Positions 17,012 to 35,400 of a stretch of 43,150 bases of DNA are shown piece by piece (position 1 is the stretch's first letter; each line of letters opens with the position of its first letter). Both the position numbers and the translations under genes were made by a program. Under the pieces are notes generated by a model that ran no database searches, was not told where the DNA came from, and saw only the letters and a program-made list of their open reading frames with translations. The stretch comes from Brevinematales bacterium (GTDB taxonomy: Bacteria; Spirochaetota; Brevinematia; DTOW01): NCBI GenBank assembly GCA_026415355.1, contig JAOAHF010000015.1, positions 6,249 to 49,398 on the forward strand, written 5' to 3'.

Positions 17012-17516
17012 ATTCCCTCCTACAACTATTCTCGGATAGTTAAATGGGATTATAAATTTTCAGGAATCTAGTTTTTACATTTTTATCTAAATTTCTTGAA
17101 TTAGTTTGCTAAGAATTAAAAAGAAGGTTAAATTGATCAATTATGGTAGATATTAGTTTGTGATATCTTGTTAGATTATTTTGAGAGTGTTGTCAACAAT
17201 AAATAGTATGGTTACTAGAGATTAGTGATTATTTGTGAGAGTGAAATAAAGTTAGAGTAGAATTTCAGGGACATTAAAAGGGAAGTATAATGTAGGGATT
17301 TTAGGAAAGTAGTGAAAATTGCTTTGGTTTTTGAGTATGACGATTAATGTTGGGTTGATAGCTGGTTGGAGTGTTAGTAAACAGTTATTGAGATGGGGTA
17401 TTTAGAATACCCTTCTATAGGAAATACCGAAATATTGACAAAAATTCAGTTATTAGAATGTTGAAAAAGAGTTAAGTGTTTTATATACTTGTGACTAAGT
17501 TTGAAAGGAATGTGTT
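17012..17516. other. 505-base gene-free spacer between fliE and the signalling operon
   Basis: This divergent intergenic region holds at least the promoter described at its right end. A dyad GGGTATT-tag-AATACCC lies at 17396-17412, upstream of that promoter, and could be an operator. I see no reading frame, tRNA or known riboswitch core (no cobalamin box) in it. Confidence 0.5.
17461..17489 (+). promoter_or_regulatory. Sigma-70-type promoter of the signalling operon
   Basis: TTGAAA (17461-17466) and TATACT (17484-17489) are separated by exactly 17 bases. Transcription would start near 17496, leaving a leader of about 20 bases with an AAAGGAA ribosome binding site. A second TTGACA at 17435-17440 lacks a well-spaced -10 box. 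Confidence 0.6.
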
Positions 17517-18251
17517 ATGAGAAAGTTATTTGTAACCTTATTGATTGTGCTACTTGGAGGTATTTCTTTTGGGCAAACCTTGGTTTATTATGATCCTGAT
17601 GGGAATCTTAGAAGGATAGTGGATATAAACTCTGAGGGTAATAGGATTTTTTCGAAGATAGGTCTAAAATTCTTTATTGCTGTAGATGACAATTCTTTCA
17701 ACAGTGTTGTTAAACAGTATAGTCCAGAGTACTTTATAATGAACTCTGTAATATACCAATCAAGAAAAAGGAGTTTAAATTTGGAAGCTGCTTTTGTTTT
17801 TGAGAAGGATAAAAAAACTACCTATGCAAAGAAGATAGTTACATTCCAAGAAGGTTTAGGTTTAAAGGATATAGCAACTAGAGTTTTAGCATCTTCTTTC
17901 AGGGATATTTCAGAAATAGTTCCTATCGAAGCAAAGATTTTGAAGGTACCTAAAGATTTGGATGCTCTTTTGGCTATGAAATTTAAACAGGCAGATTTTG
18001 CTATAGTTTCTGAAAGTAGTATTGATGTGTTTAAAACAATAAGTCCAGTTGATTTTGGACTTCTTAGAGTTGTTTACACTAGTAAAGAAATAGTTAATCC
18101 TGTATTTTGCTTTGTTCAAGGTAAAGAAAGTCCTAGTAAGATTAGGGAAATTCAGAGGCTTCTTGTAAGTTCTGATGCTAAACAATTTATGAGTCTTTTG
18201 CTATTTGATAATATATCTGATGATCCCAAAGTTTTGTCAAAGATAAGATAG
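17517..18251 (+). CDS. Periplasmic PhnD-like solute-binding protein
   Basis: A Sec signal peptide (residues 1-19, ending GISFG) precedes a soluble domain of about 225 residues. The strand-helix pattern resembles the PhnD/SsuA-type binding fold: KFFIAVDDNSFNSVVKQYSPEYFIM, then LLAMKFKQADFAIVSESSIDVF, then VNPVFCFVQGKES. The family captures small anions or metabolites in the periplasm, but the ligand cannot be read from sequence, and this copy is short. First gene of a four-gene operon (spacing nine bases) that has no ABC permease or ATPase, so it more likely presents ligand to the sensor phosphatase two genes downstream than to a transporter. Confidence 0.65.
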   Translation: MRKLFVTLLIVLLGGISFGQTLVYYDPDGNLRRIVDINSEGNRIFSKIGLKFFIAVDDNSFNSVVKQYSPEYFIMNSVIYQSRKRSLNLEAAFVFEKDKKTTYAKKIVTFQEGLGLKDIATRVLASSFRDISEIVPIEAKILKVPKDLDALLAMKFKQADFAIVSESSIDVFKTISPVDFGLLRVVYTSKEIVNPVFCFVQGKESPSKIREIQRLLVSSDAKQFMSLLLFDNISDDPKVLSKIR

Positions 18252-18260
18252 GAGGTATTT

Positions 18261-19220
18261 ATGATTTTTAGGAGTATTTTTTTAGGAATTTTGATGTTTT
18301 TGACTTTTTGTGGATTTGTATATCCTGAACCTATTAAGAATATTTCTGATTTTTCATTTCCTAAGAGAACAGGTAAAGAAGTTTTGGTTTTAGTTTCTGA
18401 TAAGATTTCTACTTTTGAAGAGGTGGAGAAAGGTATATATGACTCGCTTCAAGGTTATAATGTTTTCTCTTACAATTTTCATGGAGATACTAATCAGATG
18501 AAGATGATACCAGATGTAGTTAATAGGCTTAGACCTAATGTTGTTGTTGCTGTAGGTATTAGCGTTCTTGAAAATCTTATTGGTAAGGTTCAAATTCCTG
18601 TTGTTTTTAGTATGGTTATAAACTACAAGAAATTTGGCATTGAAAAATATAATAATATAACTGGTGTTTCTCTTCAAGTTCCTCCGGAGTCGATTTTCTT
18701 TAATTTTAAGACAGTTTATCCGAATTTTAGAAAAGTTGGTGTTATATGTAGCAAGGACTACTTCAATTTATTCATACAACCTTCTGTTGATAGTGTTAAG
18801 TTTAGTTTGGATGTTGAAATAGTTCCTGTTTTGATTCCTTCATCGAAAGACTTTGTTTCAGCATACAATTCTCTTTCGAAGAATGTTGATGTTATGTGGA
18901 TGGTTCCTGATACTACAGTGCTTGATAAGAACTCAATAGTTTATTTTATAACAGAGAGTTATAAGTTTTTAAAACCAACTATTGTTTATTCAGAACCTTT
19001 TGTAAAAGCAGGTGGTCTTTTTAGTGTTTCTCCTAACTATAGTAGCGTAGGGTCTCAGGTTGCTTTGATGGTTAGAAAGATAGTTGAGGATAAAGTTCAA
19101 CCATCTAAAATCGAGATAGCTCCGGTTGTTGGTACTTTTACTACTATAAACAGAGAACTAGCAAGAAAACTTAACATCAATGAAAGTTTATTGGGACTAA
19201 TAGATAATGTTGTAGAGTGA
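18261..19220 (+). CDS. Periplasmic ABC-type substrate-binding protein (ABC_sub_bind family)
   Basis: Type I periplasmic binding fold of the TrpX/ABC_sub_bind kind. The signal peptide spans about residues 1-22. Lobe 1 includes GKEVLVLVSDKISTFEEV, NVVVAVGISVLENLIG and IPVVFSMVINY. Lobe 2 begins at KVGVICSKDYFNLFIQP and includes DVMWMVPDTTVL and KPTIVYSEPFVKAGGLFSVS. It ends with an RELARKLNI segment. An AGGAGGT ribosome binding site sits in the nine-base gap. The next gene begins almost immediately. With no permease beside it, it may be a dedicated sensor subunit for the SpoIIE-type phosphatase; its ligand is unknown. Confidence 0.8.
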   Translation: MIFRSIFLGILMFLTFCGFVYPEPIKNISDFSFPKRTGKEVLVLVSDKISTFEEVEKGIYDSLQGYNVFSYNFHGDTNQMKMIPDVVNRLRPNVVVAVGISVLENLIGKVQIPVVFSMVINYKKFGIEKYNNITGVSLQVPPESIFFNFKTVYPNFRKVGVICSKDYFNLFIQPSVDSVKFSLDVEIVPVLIPSSKDFVSAYNSLSKNVDVMWMVPDTTVLDKNSIVYFITESYKFLKPTIVYSEPFVKAGGLFSVSPNYSSVGSQVALMVRKIVEDKVQPSKIEIAPVVGTFTTINRELARKLNINESLLGLIDNVVE

Positions 19221-19227
19221 GGTGAGT

Positions 19228-20844
19228 ATGCTAATGTTTGCTAATCTAAACATAAGGGCAAAACTTTCAATAATTATATCGGTGATAGTAGTTTCGATTT
19301 CTCTAATAATGAGTGTTATTTTTATAGTTAAATCTAACAATGAGATGATGACATCAATAATAACTAGATCTGGAATGCTTGCTAAGAGTATGGCGGTTCT
19401 TTCTGCTAATTACATAGCAGGGTTTCAGTATCTGGATATTCAAAGAGCTATTGAAGATGTTGTTTCTAGTGATAGGGAAATAGTTTACGGTTATCTTGAA
19501 GATGTTAGTGGAGAGGTTATATCTCCCGTGTTTAAGGATGAAGTTGTAAAGGATCAAAACAAGATAGTTACATCTTACAAACAGATTAGCAAGGTTTTAA
19601 GAAAACTAGACTCCATAGGTTATGGTTTTTCTTCTGATGTTAGTGTGAGTTTGGTTCTTCATGGAAATGAGCAATGTGTTGATGTTAAGGTTCCAGTTCT
19701 CATAGGAGATGCTCCTGCTTCTTACATAAGAATTGGTACTACGATGAAGTATCTTAATCGAGAGTTGTTAGGTAATATAGTGATATCGACTATAATTGTC
19801 ATTTTCTTAATAGGACTTGGAATACTTTTTAGTTGGTATTTTGCTAAGAGTTTTTCTACTCCTATACTTAGACTAAAGGATGCTGCTGTTGCATTTGGTA
19901 ATAAAAACTTTGATTATAAAGTTGAAGTTTTGACTAATGATGAAATTGGTGTTTTGGCTAAAACTTTTGATGAAATGAGAAAGAATATAAAAGAGTATAG
20001 TGAGCATTTGGAAGAATTAGTTGCTCAGAGAACTAAAGAGTTGCAGGAAGCATATGAGAAGCTAAAAGAGAAAGATAGAATAATACAAATGGAGTTGGAT
20101 TTTGCGAGTAAAATACAAAAGGGAATAATGCCAAATGGGGGGTATAAGTGGCATGATTTCGTGATATTTGGATATTCTCAACCTATGGAGAAAATAGGTG
20201 GAGATTTTTTTGATATATTTCCAGTACCGGGTGGTAAACTTTTATTTTATGTTGCTGATGTTTCAGGGCATGGTATTCCTGCTGCTTTGATTACCACTAT
20301 GCTTAAAATTTCTTTACTTAACATAAGTTTTGAAAAGCAAGATCCTTCTGAAATAATAGAGAGGTTAAATGAGAGAATCAGAATAATAAATTCTGATATG
20401 AAAGATCAGGTTATAGCAAACTATTTAACTATTTTTACTTCAATAGTTGATAAAGAAGGTAATATGAGTTTTGCATCAGGTGGGCACCATAAACCTGTGA
20501 TTTATAATGCATTCTCAAAGCAGTTTAAAGAAATTCCTGATGTTCAGGGGGCTATAGTAGGTATACTTGAACCTGATATGTATGTATGTGCATCGTCTTA
20601 CTTTAAGATTGATGATGGAGACATAATGTTTCTATATACTGATGGTGTTACTGAAAGAAGGAATTTGTCTAATAAGGAACTTGAGTTGGATGGTTTTAAG
20701 AGTATAGTTGCTGATGCTGTTGATAGGAATTATTCTGGAAAAAAGTTGTTATCTTATGTTCTAAATAGGATAGAAGAGTTTGCTGAAGGTGTTCCGCCTA
20801 GAGATGATTTTACTCTACTTTTAGTTCAGAAGATAAAAGAATAG
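19228..20844 (+). CDS. Membrane sensor HAMP/SpoIIE-type (PP2C) serine phosphatase
   Basis: Predicted transmembrane receptor that dephosphorylates a protein, usually an anti-sigma antagonist, in the cytoplasm. Helix 1 lies at about 12-35, a periplasmic sensor region at about 36-183, helix 2 at about 184-208, HAMP at 205-262 and a short coiled coil at about 255-290. The SpoIIE/RsbU phosphatase follows, with metal-binding Asp in GGDFFD (near 327), VADVSGHG (near 346), LYTDGVTE (near 472) and PRDDFTLLL (near 528). The start used is an ATG five bases after GAGG; an in-frame GTG two codons earlier lacks a site. No STAS or anti-sigma partner is in the window. Confidence 0.88.
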   Translation: MLMFANLNIRAKLSIIISVIVVSISLIMSVIFIVKSNNEMMTSIITRSGMLAKSMAVLSANYIAGFQYLDIQRAIEDVVSSDREIVYGYLEDVSGEVISPVFKDEVVKDQNKIVTSYKQISKVLRKLDSIGYGFSSDVSVSLVLHGNEQCVDVKVPVLIGDAPASYIRIGTTMKYLNRELLGNIVISTIIVIFLIGLGILFSWYFAKSFSTPILRLKDAAVAFGNKNFDYKVEVLTNDEIGVLAKTFDEMRKNIKEYSEHLEELVAQRTKELQEAYEKLKEKDRIIQMELDFASKIQKGIMPNGGYKWHDFVIFGYSQPMEKIGGDFFDIFPVPGGKLLFYVADVSGHGIPAALITTMLKISLLNISFEKQDPSEIIERLNERIRIINSDMKDQVIANYLTIFTSIVDKEGNMSFASGGHHKPVIYNAFSKQFKEIPDVQGAIVGILEPDMYVCASSYFKIDDGDIMFLYTDGVTERRNLSNKELELDGFKSIVADAVDRNYSGKKLLSYVLNRIEEFAEGVPPRDDFTLLLVQKIKE

Positions 20845-20854
20845 GAGGTATTAT

Positions 20855-23053
20855 ATGAGTAGGATTTTCATAATTTTGATTTTTATTATCTCTTTTTCTT
20901 TCCTTATTAGTGTAGGTTACTCTCAGATAACCGAAGAGGACTTTTTCAAGATTGAGGAGAGTATAGTAGTTGCTGCTACTAAGCAAAAGCAAACTGTTTC
21001 AGAAGCGCCTGCTACTGTTTACGCTATAGATCAGAAGACTTTGAAAATTTTAGGTTTTTCTGAGCTTAATCAGGTGTTAAGGTTTGTTCCAGGTGTAGAT
21101 GTTTATGATCCTGATTTCTTTCTCTTTGGTGGGCAACGAGGATTTGTTGGAGCTTTTGATACTACTCTCGTTTTACTCGATGGTGTTGAGATGAATAATA
21201 ACATTGCTGGTGAATCTTTTATTAGCCATAATTATCCGCTTTCACATATAGAAAGAATTGAGGTAATACAGGGACCAGCATCATCTCTTTATGGTGCTAA
21301 CGCAGTAGGTGGTATAATAAACTTGGTTACCTATGAAGAAGATAAAATTAATGGTATGAGAGCGGGTGTAAAGTTTGGTTCGTATAATACTCTTTCTCCT
21401 TTTGCTTTACTCGGTGGTAAAGTTGGTGATTTTAAATACAAAGTTTTTGGTAGGGTTTTCCTTACAGATGGTCCCAATTACTATGATAGTGTTACTAAGT
21501 ATTATATCTATGCACCTCAAACACCTAACGTAAATAGGAGACCTCAGTACTCACTGTGGGATTATAATGACACAGGTTACAACAGGTATTTGTATGCTAA
21601 ACTAAGTTATGGACCTTTCTATTTGGGTGGAGTTTATAACTACCAAATAGATGGTAGAGGAGTGCAAGATATACAATGGGTTTATTATTTTGATGAAGAT
21701 GGTAGAGATCAAAGGATTCTATTTGGTGGATTTGAAGGTTTTATTATACCGGATTATCTAAAACTTAAACTGGAGCAAAGAGTTTGGCAAGATTATTTGT
21801 GGGGTAATCATACACAAGTTAGTGATATTAATGATGTACTACCTAATGGTTATGCAACTAATACTCAGGATACTAACATAACAAGAGGGGATATTGAAGC
21901 TTGGAGAGGTTTCTATTCAAATCTCAAATCTCCTGGAAGTTTGAGATTCCAAACAGAGCTACAGCTTGCGTTATATTTTGCTGAAAAGCACAGATTAACT
22001 GGAGGTGTTGTTATTGATATACTAAGAGGTATAGGGGCATCTTGGAATAGATTGGATTACTCAACTCTTGTCTCAGGACCTACAAATGTTATTGATATTC
22101 ATCCTTACGTTGATGTAGAGAAACAATTAGCATCTTGGACAAAATTAGGTGGTTACTTGCAATGGGAAGTTCCTTTAATTAGTGAGTTATTGTTCCTTAC
22201 GCTTGGTGGTAGAGGTGATATTTATTTTGTAAGTAACCAAACTAGGTTTGAACTAAACCCAAGGAGTGGTATAGTAGTGAAACCATTTGAAGGTGCTGCT
22301 TTCAAATTGCTTGCTGGAAAAGCGTTCAGAGAGCCAACAGTTTTTGAATTGTGGAGTGCAGCAAATAAAATAGGTGGTGTCCAAGAACTCAAGTATGCTT
22401 CAACATGGACTTTTGAGATCAGTTGGTTCCAGATAGTTTCTGATTGGTTACAAAATTATGTTACAGGGTTTTATAACTATGGTGAAAATTTCAAAGTTAC
22501 CATACCAGAACAGGGGGTAGGTGTTATAGAAGTTCCTATTGTCAGGATATGGGGAGTTGAAGAGTATCTAAGAATAACTCTACCCTTCTTCCAAAATATT
22601 CAGCTAACTCTTGGTTATACCTATCAGAAAGGGTTACAATCATATTGGAAAGTTGCAGTTCAAGGTACAACGACAAATTCAAATTGGGTAGATAGCAGCG
22701 TTCCAACGATACCAGAACATAAAGGTTTTGCTATAATTTCTTACAGGATCCTTGAGAATCTATACTTATCTGTTTTGAATTACATAGTAGGTGAGATTGA
22801 TCCGGGAACTGGTAATTCGTTATCTACAACTTTGGGTAAATTACCTGCTTATTGGATTGTTGATCTTTCTCTACTAGCCAATAATGTTATTACATTTGCT
22901 AATGTTTCATATGATTTGAATGTTTCTGTAAGGAATTTACTCAATCAAGAGTGGTGGAATCTTAACCCAAGAAATGGTGGTATGGGACTTTCACCTGCAG
23001 CGTTTCCTCAAAAAGGAATAAACTTTGAGGTTTCTTTGACAGGTAGGTTGTAG
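20855..23053 (+). CDS. TonB-dependent outer-membrane receptor
   Basis: Outer-membrane 22-strand barrel with plug, driven by TonB. The signal peptide ends near residue 23 (GYSQ). A TonB-box-like EESIVVAATK is at 34-43. The plug follows: SEAPATVYAID, RFVPGVDVYD, LVLLDGVEMNN, and the diagnostic RIEVIQGPASSLYGANAVGGIINLVT-type block near 133-159. The barrel is rich in aromatic residues. The final residue is Leu (SLTGRL) rather than the usual Phe/Trp. It is the last gene of the operon, with an AGGAGG site over the preceding stop, and a terminator follows. No TonB, ExbB or ExbD is nearby. Substrate unknown. Confidence 0.93.
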   Translation: MSRIFIILIFIISFSFLISVGYSQITEEDFFKIEESIVVAATKQKQTVSEAPATVYAIDQKTLKILGFSELNQVLRFVPGVDVYDPDFFLFGGQRGFVGAFDTTLVLLDGVEMNNNIAGESFISHNYPLSHIERIEVIQGPASSLYGANAVGGIINLVTYEEDKINGMRAGVKFGSYNTLSPFALLGGKVGDFKYKVFGRVFLTDGPNYYDSVTKYYIYAPQTPNVNRRPQYSLWDYNDTGYNRYLYAKLSYGPFYLGGVYNYQIDGRGVQDIQWVYYFDEDGRDQRILFGGFEGFIIPDYLKLKLEQRVWQDYLWGNHTQVSDINDVLPNGYATNTQDTNITRGDIEAWRGFYSNLKSPGSLRFQTELQLALYFAEKHRLTGGVVIDILRGIGASWNRLDYSTLVSGPTNVIDIHPYVDVEKQLASWTKLGGYLQWEVPLISELLFLTLGGRGDIYFVSNQTRFELNPRSGIVVKPFEGAAFKLLAGKAFREPTVFELWSAANKIGGVQELKYASTWTFEISWFQIVSDWLQNYVTGFYNYGENFKVTIPEQGVGVIEVPIVRIWGVEEYLRITLPFFQNIQLTLGYTYQKGLQSYWKVAVQGTTTNSNWVDSSVPTIPEHKGFAIISYRILENLYLSVLNYIVGEIDPGTGNSLSTTLGKLPAYWIVDLSLLANNVITFANVSYDLNVSVRNLLNQEWWNLNPRNGGMGLSPAAFPQKGINFEVSLTGRL

Positions 23054-23059
23054 TTTTTA

Positions 23060-23090
23060 GGTCACGGCTAGATTTTTAGCCGTGGCCTTT
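23060..23090 (+). terminator. Rho-independent terminator after the TonB receptor gene
   Basis: An 11-bp GC-containing stem (GGTCACGGCTA with TAGCCGTGGCC, one G-T pair) encloses a six-base loop and is followed by TTTAATT. It begins seven bases after the stop codon and closes the four-gene operon. Confidence 0.85.
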
Positions 23091-23248: not shown

Positions 23249-24499
23249 ATGGGAGATGCGATTACCTTTAAGGTGGTTAAATACAAGCCAGGAAGTTATG
23301 TGATGATAGAAGGTGATAAGATTCCTGAGGAGTTTTATATTATTCAAAGTGGTAAAGTTCAGGTTTTTGAGACTATAGACCCTATAATAAGAGGTACTAA
23401 AGATGGAGTTTCTTTAACCAAAGGGGACTTTTTTGGTGTAGTTTCGTGTATGAGTAGAAGGAGTAATATGGAAACAGTTATATCACTTGAAGAAACTTCT
23501 CTGTTAGCGGTACATAGATCACAGTTTGGGGATTTAATACAAAAGAGTGCTCCTATTGCGGTTAAGATCTTAAGATTTTTTAGTCAAAAACTTAGGGAAT
23601 ATGATTCGACACTGACAAAGTTAACATTTAAATCACACGCAGATGAAGATCCTTACCAGTTGTTTAACATAGCGGAATATTATTATGCGAAAAAAATGCA
23701 GGAACAGGCTGCTTATGCTTATAAGAAATATATAGAATACTGTCCTGATGGTGGTTATGTTTCTGTAGCAAAAATGAAATTGGCGTCAATAGATCCTATA
23801 ATCGCTATGTCAGAACCTGAAGTTGATATTCAGAAATCAATAGAAAAATACCACGATAATCAAGTTATATTCTGTGAACATGAGTATGGTGACAAAGCAT
23901 ATGTAATACTTAAGGGTAATGTAAGGATAACAAAGTTTGTAAATGGTAATGAGGTTTTACTTGCTGTTTTGAAGGAAGGGGATATATTTGGGGAAATGTC
24001 TATACTTGAAAATAGACCTAGAAGCGCTACAGCAACGGCAGTAGGCGAAGTTGAACTTATGTATGTAAAGAAAGAAAGCTTTGAGACTATGGTTCATTCT
24101 AGACCTGAAATAGCAACTAGAATAATAGAGTTACTCAGTGATAGAATATGGGCTATATATAGACAACTTGCGAATATAGCTCTTAAAGATCCGAATGCTA
24201 GGATATATGATGCTATAATGATACAAATAGAAAAAAATAGAGTACCAATAAAACCAAAAGAATCTTTTAAGCTCAACTTTTCAGTTGAGGATCTTATAAA
24301 GTTTTTAGGTTATCCTATTGATGAGGGTAAGAGATATCTGAAGTCGATTCTAGAAGCTGATAAAAATATTACAATTTCTTTGGATGGTAAAATTCTTGTA
24401 AATGATTTGGATAAGCTTCTTAAGGATGTTACATTCTATAAGAAAAAACTACTAATGGAGTTAAAGATACAGTTGAGTAGAACTCAGCAAAGTAAGTAG
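23249..24499 (+). CDS. Cytoplasmic protein with two cyclic-nucleotide-binding domains
   Basis: Crp-like sensor protein of about 416 residues. The first cNMP-binding domain (about 5-118) lacks the phosphate-binding Arg: its cassette reads FFGVVSCMSRRSNMETV. A TPR-like linker is at about 132-185. The second domain (about 195-305) has a canonical cassette FGEMSILENRPRSATA with the Arg and Ser/Thr needed for cNMP. The C-terminal 100 residues look helical and winged, with no clear DNA-binding helix. The start is the ATG giving MGDAITFKVV; the frame is open 13 codons further up to a TTG, but no site supports that. It stands alone between terminators. Confidence 0.85.
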   Translation: MGDAITFKVVKYKPGSYVMIEGDKIPEEFYIIQSGKVQVFETIDPIIRGTKDGVSLTKGDFFGVVSCMSRRSNMETVISLEETSLLAVHRSQFGDLIQKSAPIAVKILRFFSQKLREYDSTLTKLTFKSHADEDPYQLFNIAEYYYAKKMQEQAAYAYKKYIEYCPDGGYVSVAKMKLASIDPIIAMSEPEVDIQKSIEKYHDNQVIFCEHEYGDKAYVILKGNVRITKFVNGNEVLLAVLKEGDIFGEMSILENRPRSATATAVGEVELMYVKKESFETMVHSRPEIATRIIELLSDRIWAIYRQLANIALKDPNARIYDAIMIQIEKNRVPIKPKESFKLNFSVEDLIKFLGYPIDEGKRYLKSILEADKNITISLDGKILVNDLDKLLKDVTFYKKKLLMELKIQLSRTQQSK

Positions 24500-25329: not shown

Positions 25330-26019
25330 ATGCATAAAATAAATAATATGAGTTTCGTTGTTTTAGATAATATTTCGAAATGGTATCTGGAAAGTAATGG
25401 TAGCAAAGTTGTTGTTTTTAGGAATTTCTCTCTTTCAGTTGAGAAAGGTAAGTTTGTATCTGTTGTTGGTGAAAGTGGTTCTGGTAAGACTACGCTCCTA
25501 AACATCATAGGGGCTATTGATAGTGTTAGTGAGGGTAGTGTTTATGTTAATGGTGTTAATATAACAAATATGGATGAAGATGGTCTTTCTGAGTTTAGAA
25601 ATACTAAGGTTGGATATGTGTTTCAGAATCACTTTTTACTTAAAGGTTTTACAGTTTTAGAAAATGTTATTATACCTGTTATGTTAAAGAGTAGTTATAA
25701 TAGGATTAAGGTTTTGAATAGAGCAAAAGAATTGCTTGATTTTCTAGGCATCGGAGACAAGATTCATAGAAATATAGATGAGATTTCTGGTGGTGAAAGG
25801 CAAAGAGTTAGTATTGCAAGGGCATTGATAAATGATCCTGATATAATTATTGCTGATGAACCTACTGGCAACCTTGATCCTAAAAACTCGGAGATAGTTT
25901 TTTCACTGTTTTATAATTTAGTAAAGAGTATGGGTAAAACATGTATAATGGCTACCCACAATATGTTTTTATCTCAGCAAACGGATTATGTTATAAACCT
26001 AGATTTCAATAGATCCTAA
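25330..26019 (+). CDS. LolD-like ABC transporter ATPase
   Basis: ATPase of the LolD/MacB/FtsE group, which power lipoprotein release or mechanotransmission at the inner membrane. It has Walker A GESGSGKTT near residue 50, the Q-loop VFQNHFLL, signature ISGGERQRVSIARAL, Walker B IIIADEPTGNLD and switch His in MATHN. The length of 229 residues is normal. A second Met at codon 7 (MSFVVLDNI) would also suit the family start; neither has a clear ribosome binding site. No permease (LolC/E, FtsX or MacB-like) adjoins it. Its 3' end overlaps the convergent queC by 21 bases. Confidence 0.85.
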   Translation: MHKINNMSFVVLDNISKWYLESNGSKVVVFRNFSLSVEKGKFVSVVGESGSGKTTLLNIIGAIDSVSEGSVYVNGVNITNMDEDGLSEFRNTKVGYVFQNHFLLKGFTVLENVIIPVMLKSSYNRIKVLNRAKELLDFLGIGDKIHRNIDEISGGERQRVSIARALINDPDIIIADEPTGNLDPKNSEIVFSLFYNLVKSMGKTCIMATHNMFLSQQTDYVINLDFNRS

Positions 26020-34671: not shown

Positions 34672-35394
34672 TTATTTTGATTCAACTATAGGATCTATGT
34701 ATTCTTTTGCTCTATTTATAAACATATTTATAATTACACCGGCTACTATTCCCTCAACTATAGATACTGGTAATTGTATAGGTAAAAACATACCAAACAG
34801 TGTCATCCAAACATTCAGTAATGTTTCATTACCATGAAACTCAAGAGCTAGTTGTAATGCTGTTGTAAGGTATGTGGATATATCTGCTGAAAATCCTGCT
34901 ATAAACCCTGCTACTATGTATGGTAGTTTTATCAGTCTTGATAATTTATAAAGACCAAATGCTACAAATGAACCTACTACAGCCATTGAAAATACGTTTG
35001 CTCCAAGTGAAGTTATACCACCATGTCCCATAAATAATGCTTGGATTAATAGTGTTATGAAACCTAGAAATACAGATACTATAGGGCCTAGTATTATGCT
35101 TGAAATACCAGTAGCAGCAGGATGAGATACCGATCCAGCAACTGGTGATGGAATGGCAAGTGATGTTATCAAAAAAACAAGGGCTCCTATTAGTGCTAAT
35201 ACTGCTATATAGTTTGGTTTGCTTTTTAAATTATTGATGACTATTATTAAAGACCATACAACAAAGGGTAATGCAAAAACTATCCATAATAAAACCCAGT
35301 TTAGGCTTAGTATACCTTCCGCTATATGCATTGAGTAGCCTATCTGGGATAAGAGTAGTATCATTATGATTGTATAATAAAACTTCTTTAGCAT
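34672..35394 (-). CDS. cbiM: Cobalt/nickel transport membrane protein CbiM/NikM
   Basis: Substrate-binding membrane component of an energy-coupling-factor transporter for Co2+ or Ni2+. A signal-type N-terminus is followed by MHIAEGIL; in CbiM/NikM the mature Met-His N-terminus binds the metal, which fits cleavage right after GYS. There are six or so further helices, with SHPAATGISSIILGPIVSVFLG and FMGHGGITSLGANVFSMAVVG as family blocks. The start is set at the second ATG (MLKKFYY), nine bases after GGAGGG; the ATG two codons earlier would leave only three bases. The ribosome binding site lies in a hairpin. Choice between Co and Ni cannot be made here. Confidence 0.9.
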   Translation of the reverse strand: MLKKFYYTIIMILLLSQIGYSMHIAEGILSLNWVLLWIVFALPFVVWSLIIVINNLKSKPNYIAVLALIGALVFLITSLAIPSPVAGSVSHPAATGISSIILGPIVSVFLGFITLLIQALFMGHGGITSLGANVFSMAVVGSFVAFGLYKLSRLIKLPYIVAGFIAGFSADISTYLTTALQLALEFHGNETLLNVWMTLFGMFLPIQLPVSIVEGIVAGVIINMFINRAKEYIDPIVESK

Positions 35395-35400
35395 ATCCAT

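Follow-up and report, generated by a model that had tools for sequence, protein, structure and literature searches.

A conserved four-gene envelope locus in Spirochaetota, possibly a sensory relay from a TonB-dependent receptor to a serine phosphatase

What purpose is served by an operon that encodes two periplasmic binding proteins, a membrane serine phosphatase and an outer-membrane TonB-dependent receptor (TBDR), with no transporter? Such an operon lies in a window of 43,150 nucleotides (G000:C15:6249-49398, the whole stretch of DNA analysed here) from a Brevinematales genome of 1.76 Mb in 80 contigs. A preliminary description of this DNA had read the locus as a signal relay rather than an importer; we examined that reading by comparison across Spirochaetota genomes.

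Results

Four genes on the + strand span positions 17517-23053 of the window, preceded on the opposite strand by fliE (Pfam). The features of the locus are as follows.

17461-17489, + strand: promoter-like site TTGAAA-17-TATACT (10 of 12 matches; 27 bases ahead of the first start codon)
17517-18251, + strand: PhnD-like periplasmic binding protein, 244 aa, with signal peptide (Pfam, homologues)
18261-19220, + strand: ABC_sub_bind (PF04392) binding protein, 319 aa, of the signalling-type clade (Pfam E=4.7e-20, tree)
19228-20844, + strand: membrane HAMP/SpoIIE-type serine phosphatase, 538 aa (ATG start; GTG 19222 also open)
19324-19776, + strand: periplasmic region of the phosphatase, about 150 aa (hydropathy, homologues)
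19840-19992, + strand: HAMP domain (Pfam)
20227-20829, + strand: SpoIIE/PPM domain with GGDFFD, DVSGHG, YTDG and RDDFT (Pfam, motifs)
20855-23053, + strand: TonB-dependent receptor, 732 aa, with plug domain (Pfam plug E=3e-18)
20957-20977, + strand: putative TonB box ESIVVAA, directly after the signal peptide (read in the translation)
23059-23088, + strand: intrinsic terminator, 13-pair stem followed by a T-rich tail (hairpin)

The phosphatase most likely starts at ATG 19228 rather than GTG 19222, because the ATG comes with an AGGTGA ribosome site of its own and corresponds to the first residue of the homologues L032 and L033. Counted from this start, the genes are separated by 9, 7 and 10 bases; AGGAGGT ribosome sites stand ahead of genes 2 and 4. 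Open reading frames, Pfam matches and distances agree with the tightly packed four-gene operon first described, and the strong terminator claimed for it was recovered as the 13-pair hairpin. Its ‘good promoter’ fared less well: the site is well positioned yet statistically unremarkable, with 55 such sites in the scan against 41.9 ± 7.5 in shuffled sequence, which is no enrichment. The operon contains neither permease nor ATPase, as had been stated, the nearest ATPase being at 25330, past the terminator and two further genes. RNA elements in the window comprise two tRNAs only, with no riboswitch as a clue to the ligand. Changes at third codon positions are 2.7 to 4.9 times those at positions 1 and 2 in all four genes, a pattern that indicates purifying selection on each.

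For the phosphatase, Pfam (HAMP, 4e-11; SpoIIE, 7e-34) and hydropathy, which places two transmembrane segments on either side of the periplasmic region, bear out the architecture originally proposed, and the catalytic and metal-binding motifs of the SpoIIE domain are all intact. The periplasmic region is probably a single Cache-like domain; Cache models gave weak matches, to a few homologues only, and its structure model was of low confidence; single-chain models built from alignments of two to three rows reached pLDDT 43 and 40, too low for use. Parts of a partner-switch system occur in the host genome—nine STAS matches and an adjacent STAS/RsbW-type pair—none of them in the operon.

In the receptor, the putative TonB box is invariant in family alignment A1 save for residue 35, and TonB and ExbD genes are present in the host genome. 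The barrel falls under Pfam thresholds in the window protein and is detected in L163, L166 and L177. Because plug similarity is scattered over B12, haem and siderophore receptors, we name no ligand. Pfam gives the plug only, with no FecA-type N-terminal STN signalling domain. For the first gene the PhnD-like label is weakly founded in the window protein, whose PF12974 score of 19.1 bits (E=9e-4) falls short of the cut-off of 27, but sound through its orthologues: L163, L166 and L177 pass that cut-off (27.8, 32.1 and 42.6 bits), and homology to them in alignment A5 therefore justifies the name. A motif of this protein, VPKDLDALLAMKFKQAD, recurs in related form in all homologues.

We searched 393 Spirochaetota genomes with profile A5 of the PhnD-like protein and found it in ten, distributed over four families (four genomes in f1, three in f9, two in f20 and one in f23); in all ten the gene has both a PF04392 gene and a HAMP-SpoIIE gene as neighbours. 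The full order PhnD, PF04392, HAMP-SpoIIE, TBDR recurs in G003 and also in G004, where the contig stops within the receptor gene, while the set is split over two contigs in G002 and its SpoIIE and TBDR genes lie at the edge of a contig in G001. Downstream, the set is followed by a CRP-like gene in the window, a ParA-like gene in G001, RecA in G002 and other envelope proteins in G003 and G004; within the family, then, gene order is kept and flanks differ in every genome, and in f1 the TBDR is the last gene of a tight operon. Judged by gene order, the four-gene set is a conserved unit. The receptor, present at the PhnD-set locus in eight of the ten genomes, is not obligatory to it: G178 and G219 have none there, their relative G104 has a TBDR and a PhnD-like gene with a broken frame, and the TBDR genes of f20, f23 and G104 are on the other strand. 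The expectation that the cluster would prove conserved as a unit was thus borne out by order within the family and occurrence in three further families, and failed for the receptor at G178 and G219.

The PF04392 family offered a wider comparison. It is present in 90 of 179 genomes surveyed, with the window gene its sole member in G000; a plasmid collection, taken as a view of other phyla, gave few matches, all weak. Neighbours within three genes were compared for 62 low-scoring loci and 16 high-scoring, importer-type loci: the former showed a signalling protein or fused output at 52, a TBDR at 24 and a permease at none, the latter one, none and nine, respectively, with permeases and outputs recognised by phmmer seeds, so that distant ones could be missed. 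Fisher p values for these contrasts (signalling, 1e-8; TBDR, 0.0017; permease, 6e-8) are indicative, because the PF04392 rows are related and their kinship is uncorrected. A TBDR adjoins PF04392 in five families, accompanied by a signalling gene in 22 of the 24 cases.

A tree of 77 PF04392 domains places nine proteins of the PhnD set in one clade (support 100/99), whose sister comprises 19 proteins, 18 of them at TBDR-bearing loci (100/99; joined at 99/87). The 16 importers form a separate, well-supported group in which four divergent low-scoring proteins are nested. Sequences conserved in importers (GtSDltP, YxSsExN and TDN) are replaced in the PhnD set, where different residues, in segments such as SExFVKAG-FFSVSPNYxSxGSQ, are conserved instead. 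Clusters of the sister clade consist of receptor, PF04392 protein and a HAMP-SpoIIE protein, cyclase or kinase, the same receptor/binder pair standing beside a HAMP-cyclase in L034, a HAMP-SpoIIE protein in L035 and a HAMP-histidine kinase in L174; an exchange of outputs behind a conserved input is what characterises a sensory front end. PF04392 domains also occur as fusions to a PAS-histidine kinase (L041, L043, L048) or a cyclase (L042), with no transport domain in either kind of fusion.

A TrpXYZ-type importer is the obvious known relative, since the window protein belongs to the same PF04392 family and finds its best NCBIfam match in TrpX. It nevertheless scores 72 bits against the TrpX cut-off of 390, belongs to a separate clade and lacks the importer motifs GtSDltP and YxSsExN; and the permease and ATPase expected beside an importer's PF04392 gene are absent from the operon.

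Cognate importer genes might lie elsewhere in the genome, which would have told against the relay first proposed. The host has two BPD_transp_2 permease genes, which look like LivH/LivM, and eight BPD_transp_1 genes, comprising OppB/OppC, a PstC/PstA pair next to PstB/PhoU-like genes and two further pairs. Within these two classes none lies beside a PhnD- or PF04392-type gene, and context paired none with the binding proteins of the operon. An ordinary importer with a remote permease was rejected, as none of these permeases, judged by family and neighbours, is of PhnE or TrpY type by context.

Discussion

We consider it moderately probable that the operon is a dedicated envelope-spanning sensory module with no inner-membrane transport step. 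The preference for a relay over an importer, in keeping with the preliminary description, follows from the conservation of the unit, the split of PF04392 into clades, the lack of permeases at all 62 loci of this type and the fusions of PF04392 to kinase and cyclase outputs.

Three other explanations deserve weighing. The locus could serve uptake, with an inner-membrane transporter that is elsewhere or shared, binding proteins that feed this importer, and a phosphatase that detects the ligand by itself and has no role beyond the regulation of uptake. TBDRs and binding proteins do usually serve uptake, the ten permease genes noted above are on hand, the sensor's own periplasmic domain could bind a ligand, and a promiscuous or shared permease may exist elsewhere in the genome; we nonetheless think this unlikely, given that permeases adjoin none of the 62 loci of this PF04392 type as against nine of 16 importer-type loci, that those ten genes look Liv-, Opp- and Pst-like or belong to the two further BPD_transp_1 pairs, none adjoining a PhnD or PF04392 gene, and that the kinase and cyclase fusions carry no transport domain. 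That the four genes are unrelated and neighbours by chance has a negligible probability and is refuted by the comparative data: order persists amid different flanks in each genome, the first two genes accompany the third in ten of ten genomes, and the association is specific to a clade. The set is more than chance because all four genes are under purifying selection and the unit is kept in other genomes.

The third alternative concerns the position of the receptor. The binding proteins and phosphatase might signal by themselves, with the TBDR a co-regulated uptake gene that forms part of the response rather than the path of input. G178 and G219, which keep PhnD, PF04392 and HAMP-SpoIIE with no adjacent TBDR, are consistent with this, as is the opposite-strand TBDR of f20, f23 and G104, which is therefore outside the same transcript, and a TBDR is absent from many signalling-type PF04392 loci. 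Against it stand the pairing of TBDR with PF04392 in five families, with a signalling gene in 22 of 24 cases, and the f1 operon, which the TBDR closes and whose receptor, as a query, has its sole match in G000 at this locus. On balance we find a receptor that acts only as output rather improbable, a shade more so than the uptake explanation.

If the operon is the sensory module that we favour, a ligand would cross the outer membrane through the TBDR, energised by the genome's TonB/ExbD. In the periplasm the PF04392 protein would capture it, the PhnD-like protein serving as a co-adaptor or a second binder. Once loaded, the binding protein would dock on the HAMP-SpoIIE protein at its periplasmic, Cache-like domain, and the stimulus, passed on through HAMP, would alter dephosphorylation of a STAS-type anti-sigma antagonist or a SiaC-like partner. 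We infer ligand passage, binding and docking, the order of the two binders, the direction of the switch and the target of the phosphatase from the genes.

Parts of this scheme have precedents. Receptors stimulated by solute-binding proteins (SBPs) are established among chemoreceptors, sensor kinases, cyclic-di-GMP enzymes and Ser/Thr kinases, and BctC-BctE is an SBP-coupled sensor receptor (PMC9602780). The genetic linkage by which such systems are recognised, of a binding protein to a two-transmembrane receptor with periplasmic domain and HAMP, is present in the window. Further SBP-coupled sensor receptors are LuxP-LuxQ, TorT-TorS and AioX-AioS. All of these rely on a binding protein in the periplasm that stimulates a transmembrane receptor through the receptor's periplasmic domain, as we propose here from the genes. 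The described systems end in kinases, chemoreceptors or cyclic-di-GMP enzymes (PMC9602780), whereas the output in the window is a SpoIIE phosphatase; unlike them, too, the window set has two binding proteins and an outer-membrane receptor.

On the output side the closest relative is SiaA of the SiaABCD system of Pseudomonas aeruginosa, which likewise combines two transmembrane segments, HAMP and a PP2C/SpoIIE output. SiaA (NF038263) is the best NCBIfam match of the window phosphatase (E=4.8e-34, residues 176-473), but the score is 117.9 bits against a cut-off of 700, and the match is restricted to the second transmembrane segment, HAMP and catalytic parts, leaving the sensor outside. The neighbours differ as well, the window phosphatase adjoining binding proteins and a TBDR rather than siaBCD. 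To our knowledge the SiaABCD gene set includes neither binding protein nor TBDR, and the passages describing it in PMC7647112 place none with it; there SiaC, the partner on which the SiaA HAMP-PP2C phosphatase acts, resembles anti-sigma antagonists.

Signalling by a TBDR from the outer membrane inwards is familiar from FecA-FecR-FecI. The window set would share that direction of signalling, but by Pfam it has no STN domain, FecR or ECF sigma gene. Our literature search returned no named system of TBDR, two binding proteins and HAMP-SpoIIE phosphatase. SBP-triggered receptors have been described and so, independently, have SiaA-type phosphatases; their combination in the window looks undescribed.

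The broader proposition, which we hold to be evenly balanced, is that Spirochaetota possess a self-contained outer-membrane-to-cytoplasm module of TBDR, two non-transport binding proteins and a HAMP-SpoIIE phosphatase, whose TonB receptor lets ligand through solely for sensing. The module would be part of a wider clade that couples one receptor and binder to exchangeable outputs (phosphatase, cyclase or kinase). Those outputs make a clear test set. If the proposition is true, protein phosphatases would join the receptors driven by solute-binding proteins, and TonB-dependent receptors would have a second way of signalling inwards besides the FecA-FecR route. The annotation of these Spirochaetota genes as importers would then be wrong, and an entire clade now labelled as ABC transporter substrate-binding proteins would probably be non-transporting.

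Genes outside the operon in the window

Directly 3′ of the operon terminator lies a gene with a promoter-like site of its own, and further along the window is a cobalt-uptake gene:

23255-24496, protein with two cyclic-nucleotide-binding domains, directly 3′ of the operon terminator
34675-35400, minus strand, CbiM-type cobalt uptake protein

The cyclic-nucleotide-binding-domain gene is not kept beside the operon in relatives. The CbiM-type gene, which has no link to the operon, is a possible hint of cobalt/B12 metabolism.

Variation in the phosphatase and receptor genes

G003, an operon-carrying genome of the window's own family, encodes a second phosphatase (pieces at L125 1-1507 and L126 6413-6625, the gene being interrupted by two contig ends), whose sensor is unlike that of the operon phosphatase and whose catalytic domain is 65% identical to that of the latter. 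It is a recent paralogue of the operon phosphatase, and the two may have a target in common. Within the copy in G002, another genome of this family, a single frame of 1171 codons spans phosphatase and TonB-dependent receptor (L209 1-3516, on contig C55), the receptor's signal peptide running on directly from the phosphatase end; the joined frame results either from a deletion that kept the reading frame or from faulty assembly.

At six loci of family f9 (L034, L035, L128, L165, L169 and L175), the receptor plug is preceded by an N-terminal extension of ~180-200 residues and the PF04392 proteins carry TPR repeats at their C-terminus; the L035 phosphatase has TPR repeats too. The PhnD-like gene of G104, also of f9, lies in two frames (L176 9968-10746), with adjoining genes intact.

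Other settings of PF04392 genes

Two PF04392 loci, L039 (f24) and L040 (f19), share a cluster of PF04392, alanine-racemase-like, MFS-type or multi-TM, and D-Ala-ligase-like genes, with an adenylate/guanylate cyclase gene close by; this cluster is possibly another PF04392 sensor setting. Family f23 (L042, L189) has a class III cyclase fused to PF04392, a second PF04392 gene adjoining or close to the fusion.
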